Part shown: positions 2,332 to 45,157 of the stretch, piece after piece
How positions within the stretch are numbered: position 1 is the first letter of the stretch
Layout of the letters: every line of letters begins with the position of its first letter
Source of the DNA: Ignavibacteria bacterium
Lineage (GTDB): Bacteria > Bacteroidota > Ignavibacteria > Tepidaquicellales > Tepidaquicellaceae
Direction: 5' to 3'
DNA: 64,000 nucleotides
Assembly (NCBI GenBank): GCA_028714695.1
Contig: JAQTLX010000008.1
Location: 62,001-126,000 of the forward strand
Position numbers and translations under genes: made by a program
Notes under the pieces: model-generated
The model's database searches: none
What the model saw: only the letters and a program-made list of their open reading frames with translations
What the model was told of the DNA's origin: nothing

Positions 2332-2871
2332 ATGAGCAAAAATATTTTAATAATATCATCGAGTCCCCGAAAGGGAAGTAATTCCGAAATACTTTGCGGT
2401 CAATTTTTAACGGGCGCATTGGAAGCGGGTCATCAGGCAGAAATGGTTTATTTGAAAGACAAAGAAATCAACTATTGCACAGGATGCGGGACCTGCATTA
2501 ACGGTGCAAAGGGCTGTTCACAGAAGGACGATATGAGCGAAGTACTGGAGAAAATGATTGCCGCCGATGTGATTGTCATGGCAACTCCTGTATATTTTTA
2601 TACAATGTGCGGTCAGATGAAAACAATGATTGACAGAACTTGCGCGCGATACACTGAAATCAGCAATAAGGAGTTCTATTTTATTGTAACTGCTGCTGAC
2701 AACAGCAAACCTGCCATGAAAAGAACTATCGAGGAATTTCGTGGATTTACATATTGTCTTAACGGCGCAAAAGAAAAAGGAATTATTTACGGTACGGGGG
2801 CTTGGAATAAAGGTGAAATAAAAAATTCACCTGCGTATAAAGAAGCGTTCCTGATTGGGTCATCGGTTTAG
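2332..2871 (+). CDS. flavodoxin-like NAD(P)H-dependent FMN reductase
   Basis: A 179-residue cytoplasmic flavoprotein of the NADPH-dependent FMN reductase / iron-sulfur flavoprotein group. The N-terminal IISSSPRKGSNS loop is the FMN phosphate-binding signature, and TPVYFYTMCGQMKTMIDR is the second flavin-contact segment. A CTGCGTC cysteine cluster (about residues 49-55) with a further Cys nearby resembles the compact cluster of iron-sulfur flavoproteins, though whether a cluster is bound is not certain. The start is supported by GGGAGGAATAG upstream. It lies 93 bases after the aldo/keto reductase and before the DUF362 gene. Confidence 0.9.
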   Translation: MSKNILIISSSPRKGSNSEILCGQFLTGALEAGHQAEMVYLKDKEINYCTGCGTCINGAKGCSQKDDMSEVLEKMIAADVIVMATPVYFYTMCGQMKTMIDRTCARYTEISNKEFYFIVTAADNSKPAMKRTIEEFRGFTYCLNGAKEKGIIYGTGAWNKGEIKNSPAYKEAFLIGSSV

Positions 2872-2966
2872 AAATTAATTATTGCCTGAAATATAATTAA
2901 TGTATTTCGCATTATTTAAAAAATAACAATTTTGTTTTTAGCACAATTAAAATTAGGAGAAAAAGT

Positions 2967-3971
2967 ATGAGCAGATTTTTAAAAACCCCGTCTGTTATAA
3001 TACTGTTGTTAATAGTTTTTTTCGGTATCAGCGCATTTTATTATAAAAGTAACGATTCGAAAAAAGCAGCGAATACAAATGTATTAAAGAATTCCGATAA
3101 ACCGATCGTTTATATGACAAAGGATATCAGTTCTGACGGATTGATTGCCGTCTATAAAAAGTTGGGACGCAAATTGCCGGGTAAAGTGGCGGTTAAAATC
3201 AGCACGGGAGAGCCTGGCGGAGAAAATTATCTTTCACCGGATTTAATTAAAGAACTGGTTCAAAACGTAAACGGAACAATTGTCGAATGCAATACTGCTT
3301 ACAAGGGTCAGCGCTCAAGTACCGAACAGCATAAAAAGGTTGCGGAGGACCACGGTTTTACTGCCATAGCGCCTGTAGATATAATGGATGAAGAAGGTTC
3401 TATTTCTTTGCCTTTTGAAAAAGGCGTGAATATTAAGGAAGATTTTGTCGGCTCGCATTTTAAAAATTACGATTCCTACATTATACTTTCGCATTTTAAA
3501 GGACACAGGATGGGCGGATTCGGCGGCGCGATGAAAAATATGTCCATCGGAATCGCTTCGGCGAACGGGAAAATGTGGATTCATACCGCCGGAGTAACCG
3601 ACAATACGAGTGACTTTACAAAGGCTTTCGTTACTCCTCAGGATAAATTTCTGGAATCAATGGCAGAGGCGGCAGGCGCTGTAATGTCATATCTTGGAGA
3701 TAATATTTTATTTATCAGCGTAATGAATAAACTTTCGGTAGATTGCGATTGCAGTTCGAATCCTGCGGCTCCGACAATGAAGGATATCGGAATTCTGGCA
3801 TCACTCGATCCTGTGGCGCTAGATCAGGCTTGCGTTGACTGGATATACAAAGTGCTCGACGGGCATGATTTGATTAAACGTATGGAAGAGAAAAACGGTG
3901 TCCACACTCTTGAATATGCAGAGAAACTTGGATTAGGCAGCAGGAGTTACGAACTTGTAATTATAGATTAA
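2967..3971 (+). CDS. membrane-anchored DUF362 protein
   Basis: A 334-residue protein with an N-terminal hydrophobic segment (residues about 8-27), so probably anchored with the body outside the cytoplasmic membrane. The rest matches the DUF362 fold: VAVKISTGEPGGENYL near the start, HFKGHRMGGFGGAMKNMSIG in the middle and ILASLDPVALDQACVDWIY near the end. DUF362 proteins are often fused to 4Fe-4S ferredoxins; that part is absent here. Their biochemical role is not established. AGGAGAAAAAGT precedes the start. It belongs to the redox cluster beginning at 1255. Confidence 0.85.
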   Translation: MSRFLKTPSVIILLLIVFFGISAFYYKSNDSKKAANTNVLKNSDKPIVYMTKDISSDGLIAVYKKLGRKLPGKVAVKISTGEPGGENYLSPDLIKELVQNVNGTIVECNTAYKGQRSSTEQHKKVAEDHGFTAIAPVDIMDEEGSISLPFEKGVNIKEDFVGSHFKNYDSYIILSHFKGHRMGGFGGAMKNMSIGIASANGKMWIHTAGVTDNTSDFTKAFVTPQDKFLESMAEAAGAVMSYLGDNILFISVMNKLSVDCDCSSNPAAPTMKDIGILASLDPVALDQACVDWIYKVLDGHDLIKRMEEKNGVHTLEYAEKLGLGSRSYELVIID

Positions 3972-41708: not shown

Positions 41709-41740
41709 ATTGTATTTCTATGGTGATTTAAGTAATTTTG
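41709..41740 (+). promoter_or_regulatory. Bacteroidota-type promoter of the tRNA gene
   Basis: ATTG (41709-41712) and TAATTTTG (41733-41740) are separated by 20 bases and match the -33 (TTG) and -7 (TAnnTTTG) elements of the primary sigma factor of Bacteroidota. The tRNA begins eight bases after the -7 element. Confidence 0.75.
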
Positions 41741-41747
41741 CAATTCA

Positions 41748-41820
41748 GGGGATATAGCTCATCTGGTAGAGCGTCTGAATGGCATTCAGAAGGTAAGGGG
41801 TTCGACTCCCCTTATCTCCA
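41748..41820 (+). tRNA. tRNA-Ala (anticodon GGC)
   Basis: A 73-base cloverleaf: acceptor GGGGATA with TATCTCC, D arm GCTC/GAGC, anticodon stem TCTGA/TCAGA with loop ATGGCAT (anticodon 41781-41783), T arm AGGGG-TTCGACT-CCCCT, discriminator A. The G3:T70 wobble pair, the alanine identity element, is present. The CCA end is not encoded. The gene marks the boundary between host DNA and the AT-rich acquired region. Confidence 0.97.
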
Positions 41821-41894
41821 CAAAGCAACTCCTTTATATTTATATTACTTACCATTTCCTTATTTTAATTTAATTTTTTCTGATTTTTTTGGTT

Positions 41895-41914
41895 ATATAA
41901 CCAATTGGTTATAT
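41895..41914. repeat. 20-bp perfect palindrome beside the tRNA fragment
   Basis: ATATAACCAATTGGTTATAT reads the same on both strands and abuts the inverted tRNA fragment. A second overlapping palindrome, TTGGTTATATAACCAA, lies at 41889-41904. Such nested symmetry is typical of recombinase or replication-protein sites. Confidence 0.8.
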
Positions 41915-41944
41915 CAGACGCTCTACCAGATGAGCTATATCCCC
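41914..41944 (-). repeat. inverted 31-bp copy of the tRNA-Ala 5' half
   Basis: The 31 bases are the exact reverse complement of 41748-41778 (acceptor 5' strand, D arm and 5' side of the anticodon stem). The two copies are 135 bases apart. A transcript crossing both could fold into a 31-bp duplex that would hide the tRNA. It may be an attachment-site remnant, a phage-carried tRNA decoy or an assembly junction. Confidence 0.95.
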
Positions 41945-41948
41945 TTTA

Positions 41949-42254
41949 TTATAAAAAAAGGAATATTGCACTTTTTAATTTCCAGATTCCAGATTGAACA
42001 GTAACAAGATTTTTTAAAATCCCGTTTTCTTTCGTTGCTTCTTTTTGGATGCAACCATGAATGGAATTTTTTGTTCCAACTCTATATTTATTCATTACGG
42101 ATTTAATTATTTCACCATAACGAATACCATGTTTTTTATTTCTCTTCAGTAAGTAAATTGTTTCTTGCATTACAAGTTGTTTCAATGTGGTTTTCTTTGC
42201 AGTGTTTGAATTGCTGGTGTTTCTTTTGCTGTTTGTTCTTTTTGAGTTCTTCAT
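41949..42254 (-). CDS. small basic protein with winged-helix-like C-terminal domain
   Basis: A 101-residue protein: a Lys/Ser/Asn-rich tail (1-23), then ETIYLLKRNKKHGIRYGEII, NSIHGCIQKEATKENG and VTVQSGIWKLK, a pattern like the HARE-type winged helix. It could bind nucleic acid. It lies immediately after the tRNA fragment and is the first gene of the AT-rich region, transcribed toward the tRNA. A 680-base gene-free region precedes it. Confidence 0.55.
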   Translation of the reverse strand: MKNSKRTNSKRNTSNSNTAKKTTLKQLVMQETIYLLKRNKKHGIRYGEIIKSVMNKYRVGTKNSIHGCIQKEATKENGILKNLVTVQSGIWKLKSAIFLFL

Positions 42255-43636: not shown

Positions 43637-45157
43637 ATGCTGATATCAAAAAATACTAAGATATACGGTTTTGAAAAGGAAGTATATAAAATCATAAGCG
43701 AAATTAATACTGGCGGTTTTGGAATTGTATATAAAATTGAAAAGGAAAAAGATAAAAGTATTTATGCTTTAAAAACTATATTAAATAGTTTGAATAAAGA
43801 TAATATTGAAGCGTTTCTGAATGAAACTAAAATGATAAGCAAAGTCGAACATAAAAATATCATTAAATATTACTTTGTTCATGATGGTTCTCTATATCCA
43901 GAATTACCTCCTTATATAATAATGGAATATGCCAATCAAGGAACATTACAAAATATAATACAGAAACACCGTGAAACAAAAAAGCATATCGAAAAAGATA
44001 TATTAGCAAATTATATTACTCAATTAATAGATGGTATTGAGGCGATTGATTCTACATTAATTCATAGAGATATAAAACCAAATAACATATTAGTCTGTGA
44101 TGAAATATTGAAAATAACAGATTTTGGTTTATCGAAAATGGCAGAGGAAGCAACTAGAACATTAACATTTAAAGGTTTCGGTCAGCAAATGTATATGTCA
44201 CCAGAATGCTGGAAGGGTGATAAGAATAATATTCAAATGGATATTTATTCGATGGGAATAATTTTTTATCAATTAGTTACATTAGAATATCCATATAAAG
44301 TTGAAAATCAAATGGATATTGAAAATTGGAAAAAGGCTCATTTATATCAAACTCCAGAATTACCAGAGAAAATAGTCCCTGATATAGATTTGAAAATATC
44401 ACAGGTGATTATGAAAATGTTAGAAAAAAGTATTTCAAAAAGATATAAAAATTGGGCAGATATTAGAAAAGATTTAAACAAAGATGTAACTAAAACAACT
44501 GGAAATCCATTCTTGAAAGAGGTAATAACCAGCAGACTGGAAAAAGATAATAAATTGACTCAAGAACAATTAGCACAGGCTAAAAAAGACAAAGATATTC
44601 AGGATAATAATGAGTTAATCCATTATCAATTTATAGAAGGAATTGTCCACCCTATTAAAAGCATAATTGATGAGATTAATGAAGGGTATATTAAAGGGAA
44701 AATTACTTTTGATTTTTCAGATAAACCAAATAATAAATTAAGAGGCAAAATAGTTCTCATTTCTGGTGTAACCTTGTATATAGAAATTGAATTATTGTAT
44801 GATGATAATTTTTACAGAGACATTCCAAATGGATGGGGAGGAACAATGAATAAATTGTCAAGACCTGTTTTAAATGGTGAAAAAATTACAGCCTGGGGAT
44901 TTATAAAAAGTTATGAAAATGCTGGATATAATTTAATTCTTGTCGAAAATAAAAACGACATGTATGGAACATGGCATATGCTTATTAATAAAAATAGTGT
45001 ATTTGGAAGAAATCCTAGAAATCCAGAACCTTTTCCTTTTGAATTTAGAGAAATTGAAAAAGAAATCGGATATATTCATATAACTCACATATACACGACT
45101 GTAGTTAAATCTTTTGATATAAATGAAATAATCGGTTTAATTAAACATTATAATTAA
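43637..45157 (+). CDS. serine/threonine protein kinase with C-terminal domain
   Basis: A 506-residue protein. Residues about 12-300 are a complete eukaryotic-like kinase: Gly-rich loop INTGGFGIVYK, Lys46 in YALKTI, Glu63 of helix C, catalytic loop LIHRDIKPNNILV (Asp145), DFG at 162-164, YMSPECWKG and a C-lobe MLEKSISKRYKNWADI. All catalytic residues are present. The C-terminal ~190 residues (about 315-506) form an unrecognised domain that contains an OB-like VLISGVTLYIEIELLY stretch, with no transmembrane helix, so the kinase should be cytoplasmic. It heads a cluster of small genes and diverges from a lipoprotein. A stress, signalling or phage-defence role is possible but not shown. Confidence 0.93.
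   Translation: MLISKNTKIYGFEKEVYKIISEINTGGFGIVYKIEKEKDKSIYALKTILNSLNKDNIEAFLNETKMISKVEHKNIIKYYFVHDGSLYPELPPYIIMEYANQGTLQNIIQKHRETKKHIEKDILANYITQLIDGIEAIDSTLIHRDIKPNNILVCDEILKITDFGLSKMAEEATRTLTFKGFGQQMYMSPECWKGDKNNIQMDIYSMGIIFYQLVTLEYPYKVENQMDIENWKKAHLYQTPELPEKIVPDIDLKISQVIMKMLEKSISKRYKNWADIRKDLNKDVTKTTGNPFLKEVITSRLEKDNKLTQEQLAQAKKDKDIQDNNELIHYQFIEGIVHPIKSIIDEINEGYIKGKITFDFSDKPNNKLRGKIVLISGVTLYIEIELLYDDNFYRDIPNGWGGTMNKLSRPVLNGEKITAWGFIKSYENAGYNLILVENKNDMYGTWHMLINKNSVFGRNPRNPEPFPFEFREIEKEIGYIHITHIYTTVVKSFDINEIIGLIKHYN

Follow-up and report, generated by a model that had tools for sequence, protein, structure and literature searches.

Prophages in tRNA genes, elements that carry either the 3′ half or the 5′ half of their target tRNA, and short inverted copies made by template switching are all known already, and the locus described here has something in common with each. 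It lies in a window of 64,000 nucleotides, by which we mean the whole stretch of DNA analysed (G000:C8:62001-126000, in a genome of 3.85 Mb and 37 contigs), and judged by protein motifs the host may belong to Ignavibacteria or relatives. The anticodon-centred tRNA elements found by Islander (PMC4383910) share with it a direct repeat of part of the tRNA, a crossover in the anticodon stem-loop, an integrase gene at the junction and a restored tRNA, to which the window adds the remaining half of the tRNA, copied in inverted orientation. Islands that restore the 5′ half account for 159 of 3,919 in that work, a layout rated as rare in bacteria (PMC4383910). Such elements, among them the archaeal pTN3 type (PMC8371274), also bear the 5′ half of their target, and their layout is present in the same integrase family, but their 5′ half is direct and makes a working tRNA whereas that in the window is inverted and makes none; the fragment displaced here is the 3′ half. 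Phages with tRNA-dependent lysogeny such as Fionnbharth (PMC10865867) likewise have phage tRNA sequence of the attB-target type, but there a whole phage tRNA replaces the broken host tRNA, whereas in the window no more than 31 nt are present and attL restores the host tRNA; ARAGORN, run on the prophage pieces scanned, gave the restored host gene only. Short-range template-switch mutations (PMC7954356, PMC8794818, PMC8604942) also turn a small inverted copy of nearby sequence into an inverted repeat with little other change relative to a relative, as the alignment with a sister prophage shows here, although the three cases that we describe have common end points set by the tRNA. The literature searched holds no description of an inverted, non-shared tRNA half next to attP. 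Because Islander, the largest of the surveys, drops opposite-orientation fragments, using them to gauge false positives (PMC4383910), inverted copies would go unrecorded in it, and more cases may be overlooked since island finders discard such fragments.

At this site in the window lies the attL of a temperate phage, which a tyrosine integrase has inserted in the anticodon region of tRNA-Ala(GGC); the features are as follows.

41748 to 41821, plus strand: tRNA-Ala(GGC), host 5′ half joined to the prophage-borne 3′ half at attL (ARAGORN; genome search)
41777 to 41822, plus strand: att core, a 46-bp direct repeat from the anticodon stem-loop to the tRNA 3′ end, 100% identical to attR
41777 to 64000, no strand: left 22 kb of the 34.7-kb prophage (G000:C8:103777-138493), with the capsid gene inside the window and those for portal, terminase and integrase beyond it
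41823 to 41888, no strand: P′ arm spacer, conserved in the sister prophage (alignment with the sister)
41889 to 41898, plus strand: arm-type repeat TTGGTTATAT, P′1 (exact repeat; two more in the P arm beside the integrase gene)
41895 to 41904, minus strand: arm-type repeat, inverted, P′2 (exact repeat)
41905 to 41914, plus strand: arm-type repeat, P′3, which forms a 20-bp palindrome with P′2 (exact repeat)
41914 to 41944, minus strand: inverted copy of tRNA-Ala nucleotides 1-31, 31/31 identical; an apparent insertion relative to the sister
41949 to 42254, minus strand: Y gene, coding for a 101-aa basic protein predicted to be winged-helix; its stop codon is 4 nt from the copy

This tRNA-Ala is the single tRNA that ARAGORN reports in the 64-kb window and the sole GGC tRNA-Ala found in a similarity search of the genome. 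The first-pass annotation took the usual direct copy of the 3′ end to be absent, which is wrong: the search that it proposed for another junction beyond 64 kb, run on the whole genome, places a second copy of the tRNA 3′ half about 34.7 kb away and past the window end (attR, G000:C8:138448-138493). Since this direct copy stands beside a tyrosine integrase gene, the two junctions are an ordinary attL/attR pair. The integrase (C8:137183-138244; PF00589, E 2e-31; phrog_1, E 3e-54) starts about 200 bp from attR, and attachment sites in its family lie 65-225 bp upstream of the integrase gene. The 34.6 kb of DNA between the junctions has a GC content of 28.5% and encodes an HK97-type capsid, a portal, a terminase large subunit and the tyrosine integrase, so that the locus shows what is looked for in a tRNA-targeting tyrosine-integrase prophage: an integrase gene at the junction, a direct tRNA repeat at both ends, a whole tRNA at one of them, arm-type repeats flanking the core to left and right, and phage structural genes between the junctions. 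The earlier suggestion of an unusual attachment site thus holds in one respect, the extra inverted 5′ half, but the 46-bp identity to the 3′ half, the arm-type repeats and the position of the integrase gene beside attR are of the standard tyrosine-integrase type. A single-sequence scan with the integrase gave no matches, and terminase-based scans returned distant phages only, or none.

The tRNA-Ala stays whole because the phage supplies its 3′ half, and because the common core begins in the anticodon stem the integrase crossover presumably falls in the anticodon loop, ATGGCAT. The native terminator of the tRNA is now on the attR side, the prophage (window 41823-41913) having cut the gene off from it, and no intrinsic terminator was found in the phage sequence between the tRNA and the inverted copy; with the native terminator displaced and none found in its place, read-through into the copy is possible. 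Near attL the prophage also carries a serine/threonine protein kinase gene (43637-45157, plus strand; Pfam Pkinase, E 1.5e-44), a possible lysogenic-conversion or defence gene.

The inverted copy itself is as first described, with 31 tRNA bases (41748-41778) recurring exactly in inverted orientation 135 nt downstream; block-shuffled local sequence gives a best 31-mer match of at most 19/31. The inverted-repeat arms can be extended to 43 nt (41736-41778 and 41914-41956, 91% complementary), but the 12 nt outside tRNA nucleotide 1 are A/T-rich and match at 8/12 only, and because of this weaker match the copy is taken to start at the mature 5′ end of tRNA-Ala. The reported change from host to AT-rich DNA is also borne out, with GC falling from about 0.34-0.46 to 0.24-0.28 at the site. 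Among 80 distinct tRNA loci checked over distances of up to 1.5 kb, an inverted 5′ half was found at the window and in one of the relatives taken up later only, and an exact search for the 31-mer in genome contig and viral contig collections gave no match.

The palindrome noted next to the copy is present too (41895-41914, ATATAACCAATTGGTTATAT) and consists of two TTGGTTATAT repeats head to head. TTGGTTATAT occurs seven times in the whole prophage against 0.4 expected, and five of these copies flank the core, two in the P arm and three in the P′ arm (at 41889, 41895 in inverted orientation, and 41905); judged by position, they are most likely the arm-type sites of the integrase. Repeats of other sequence again stand on both sides of the core in two further prophages considered below (ATTACCCA in G003c56 and CGAACCAA in G294). 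The small, basic, predicted winged-helix protein Y, whose gene adjoins attP in several of these phages, is a candidate recombination directionality factor. Comparison with Pfam and PHROG gave no convincing family, its predicted model has no significant match in the PDB, and Y-based scans recovered only G294 and a few weak matches.

A second prophage in the same genome offers a close comparison. It occupies tRNA-Thr(CGT) on contig C2 with a 45-bp direct repeat, and its integrase and Y are 80% and 87% identical to those of the window prophage. When the two are aligned inward from the tRNA, the spacer, the arm sites and the Y gene match in the same order and orientation, and the only difference is that in the window the last arm site is followed, ahead of the Y stop codon, by the inverted 5′ half. 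No degenerate 5′ half is detectable in the sister (the best match is 14/31, with a null maximum of 18). Because the sister is collinear across this spot and lacks only the copy, the alignment is best explained by an insertion that took place in the lineage of the window prophage. The copy equals the tRNA-Ala allele of this species at 31/31 positions, including GCTCATCTGG, which is in no other tRNA-Ala fetched from relatives, and the identity at these private variants indicates that it was gained recently and in this host; for the same reason it is unlikely to have been brought from another host.

Similar inverted 5′ halves occur in two other prophages, each matching its own target and lying 70-150 bp past the tRNA end. 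The IMG/VR provirus IMGVR_UViG_3300024274_000087 (G294), whose integrase and Y are 55% and 47-48% identical to those of the window, is in tRNA-Pro(GGG) with a 45-bp direct repeat, and the 5′ half of that tRNA-Pro follows the Y stop codon directly, inverted and matching at 28/31 over nucleotides 4-34. The second, G003:C56, is a prophage of the same genus that targets tRNA-Phe, with an integrase of 29% identity; about 70 bp past the tRNA comes the 5′ half of tRNA-Phe in inverted orientation (27/31, nucleotides -3 to 29), with the AGTAGGT D-loop of its host, where the tRNA-Phe region of G022 reads AGTTGG. The outer ends of the three copies are thus at -3, +1 and +4, and the inner ends at 29, 31 and 34, the edge of the anticodon loop; for a random segment of 20-60 nt the probability of both ends falling in those ranges is about 0.018. 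The arrangement is less uniform in other respects. The window and G294 have their arm sites between the tRNA and the copy, whose place in the gap after Y differs slightly from one to the other, whereas in G003c56 the copy is between the arm sites and the tRNA. The G294 copy has a broken D-stem, tRNA stems are broken by mismatches both in this copy and in that of G003c56, and in the latter element the tRNA and the copy have a terminator-like hairpin between them and the nearest phage gene points away.

Among the 13 elements with both ends resolved and with the window layout, in which the integrase gene is beside the displaced 3′ half, three have an inverted copy of their own 5′ half and ten do not, and we therefore rejected the idea that the copy is a conserved part of the whole integrase family. 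With G033c48 and six 5′-half elements these make up 20 resolved elements. The 5′-half elements (6/20) supply a 5′ half themselves, a stub of the host 5′ half being left behind, and are in G105 (tRNA-Pro), G105b (tRNA-Arg), G195 (tRNA-Arg), G033 (tRNA-Arg), G230 (tRNA-Leu) and G003 (tRNA-Ala); the mirror case, an inverted 3′ half, was seen in none of the four tested. A single integrase family thus includes 3′-half elements, 5′-half elements, and 3′-half elements with an inverted, target-matched 5′ half, which is of interest because it is poorly understood how temperate phages switch tRNA targets and which tRNA half they carry.

Because two other prophages have the same arrangement with different tRNAs, the inverted 5′ half appears, on these comparisons, to recur in this integrase lineage as a by-product or feature rather than to stem from faulty assembly. 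Amplification is known to produce inverted joins as artefacts, which counts in favour of the chimeric assembly proposed in the first-pass annotation, but the phage backbone is homologous to the sister on both sides of the 31-bp insert, the match ends at tRNA nucleotide 1 without running into host DNA, and the arrangement recurs in the two other assemblies; of all the explanations considered, an assembly or amplification artefact is the one to which we give the least credence. The proposal of a tRNA decoy or antisense RNA acting on tRNA-Ala has also found no support and seems very improbable. A read-through transcript of the tRNA and the copy would fold to a very stable hairpin (-87.6 kcal/mol, z -11), with no terminator found between them, but such a hairpin is a trivial result of any inverted repeat. 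No promoter above chance is seen at the window site, the broken D-stem in G294 and the intervening hairpin and gene direction in G003c56 are at odds with such an RNA, and the copy always equals the integration target, which a decoy would not need.

The reading that we favour, though tentatively, has the copy arise in the lysogen through a fold-back error in copying, as a by-product without function; it would not be used in integration, since the 7-bp crossover sequence is not kept beside it. Once the phage is in a lysogen the host 5′ half would be only about 135 bp off on the same molecule, and a replication or repair strand could fold back, copy it and return in a short-range template switch, the ends of the copy being fixed by the tRNA gene's structure together with the cut that the integrase makes at the anticodon loop. 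The copy would perhaps be maintained because inserts are tolerated in the gap that separates the arm sites from the neighbouring gene. We regard fold-back at attL as the simplest cause since the source is near only in a lysogen and the sister differs by the insert alone. The three copies match the targets of their own elements in three different tRNAs, their place relative to the arm sites varies as an accident predicts, and the absence of a copy from 10 of the 13 comparable elements fits as well; an inverted, target-matched 5′ half has been gained at least three times, later than or along with integration. Against this, the gain is deduced from one close sister, in which a loss would fit too, the junction microhomology is just 1-2 bp, and template switching alone does not predict common tRNA end points in three independent copies, so the clustered ends need a further reason, which may lie in how the tRNA gene folds or in the cutting of the anticodon loop by the integrase. 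A copy that recurs with fixed ends points to a specific error or rearrangement at lysogen attachment sites, one that should lend itself to being reproduced.

The main rival to fold-back copying, which we hold to be unlikely, is that the copy is a vestige: the phage would once have carried the 5′ half of its target or the whole tRNA, much like 5′-half elements and phages with tRNA-dependent lysogeny, and a rearrangement at the anticodon crossover would have made it a 3′-half element with the 5′ half left behind, inverted. The routes envisaged are inverted integration followed by repair, or an inversion made by the integrase with a phage-borne tRNA. Confirmed elements of the same integrase family do use a 5′ half of their own to restore the tRNA, in segments that start near tRNA nucleotide 1 as the copy does, and the copy has the orientation of such elements (sense towards the integrase gene) with its inner end at the crossover. 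This accounts for the ends but not for the missing overlap or for the sister, in which spacer and arm sites agree with those of the window, orientation included, but the copy is absent; the 7-bp crossover overlap is kept beside none of the three copies (0/3), though the 31 bp in the window are perfect, and the copy sits at differing points of the post-Y gap in G294 and the window. For lack of the overlap beside any copy we do not favour an integrase-made inversion with a phage tRNA as the sole cause. It is doubtful, too, that the 31 bp are a functional attachment or regulatory part, acting in the control of integration or excision, or a small invertible segment by which the tRNA is kept or expressed from either strand. 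A target-matched copy does recur in three prophages, and the 31-bp inverted repeat that the host and phage 5′ halves make around the tRNA 3′ half could flip and leave the tRNA whole, but the copy is missing from the sister and nine other working-looking elements, its place relative to the arm sites is not conserved, and two of the three copies have the stem-breaking mismatches. A bolder form, which strikes us as improbable, is that in this integrase lineage the phages hold on to the two halves of their target tRNA, oppositely oriented and placed around the P′ arm, as a two-way, tRNA-preserving attachment module; if true, the tRNA would survive integration or inversion in either direction.

Partial tRNA copies were also noted at several further places. 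Outside attR of the sister prophage (G000:C2, L087 11570-11870) are three tandem degenerate tRNA-Thr 3′ ends with the terminator of that tRNA, as if they were scars of repeated integration, and just upstream of the prophage-bearing tRNA-Phe of G003:C56 (L224 3840-3890) the 5′ half of tRNA-Phe occurs once more, this time interrupted, and was probably left by an earlier 5′-half element. G117:C14 (L057/L225) is a composite tRNA-Asp locus, where a GIY-YIG-like gene lies close by, parts of the tRNA are repeated and a 5′ half in direct orientation precedes an integrase gene, and in G031:C80 (L206/L053, about 2684-3219) three tandem tRNA-Asn 5′ halves, with spacers of about 160 bp and no 3′ half, stand directly before an integrase gene.
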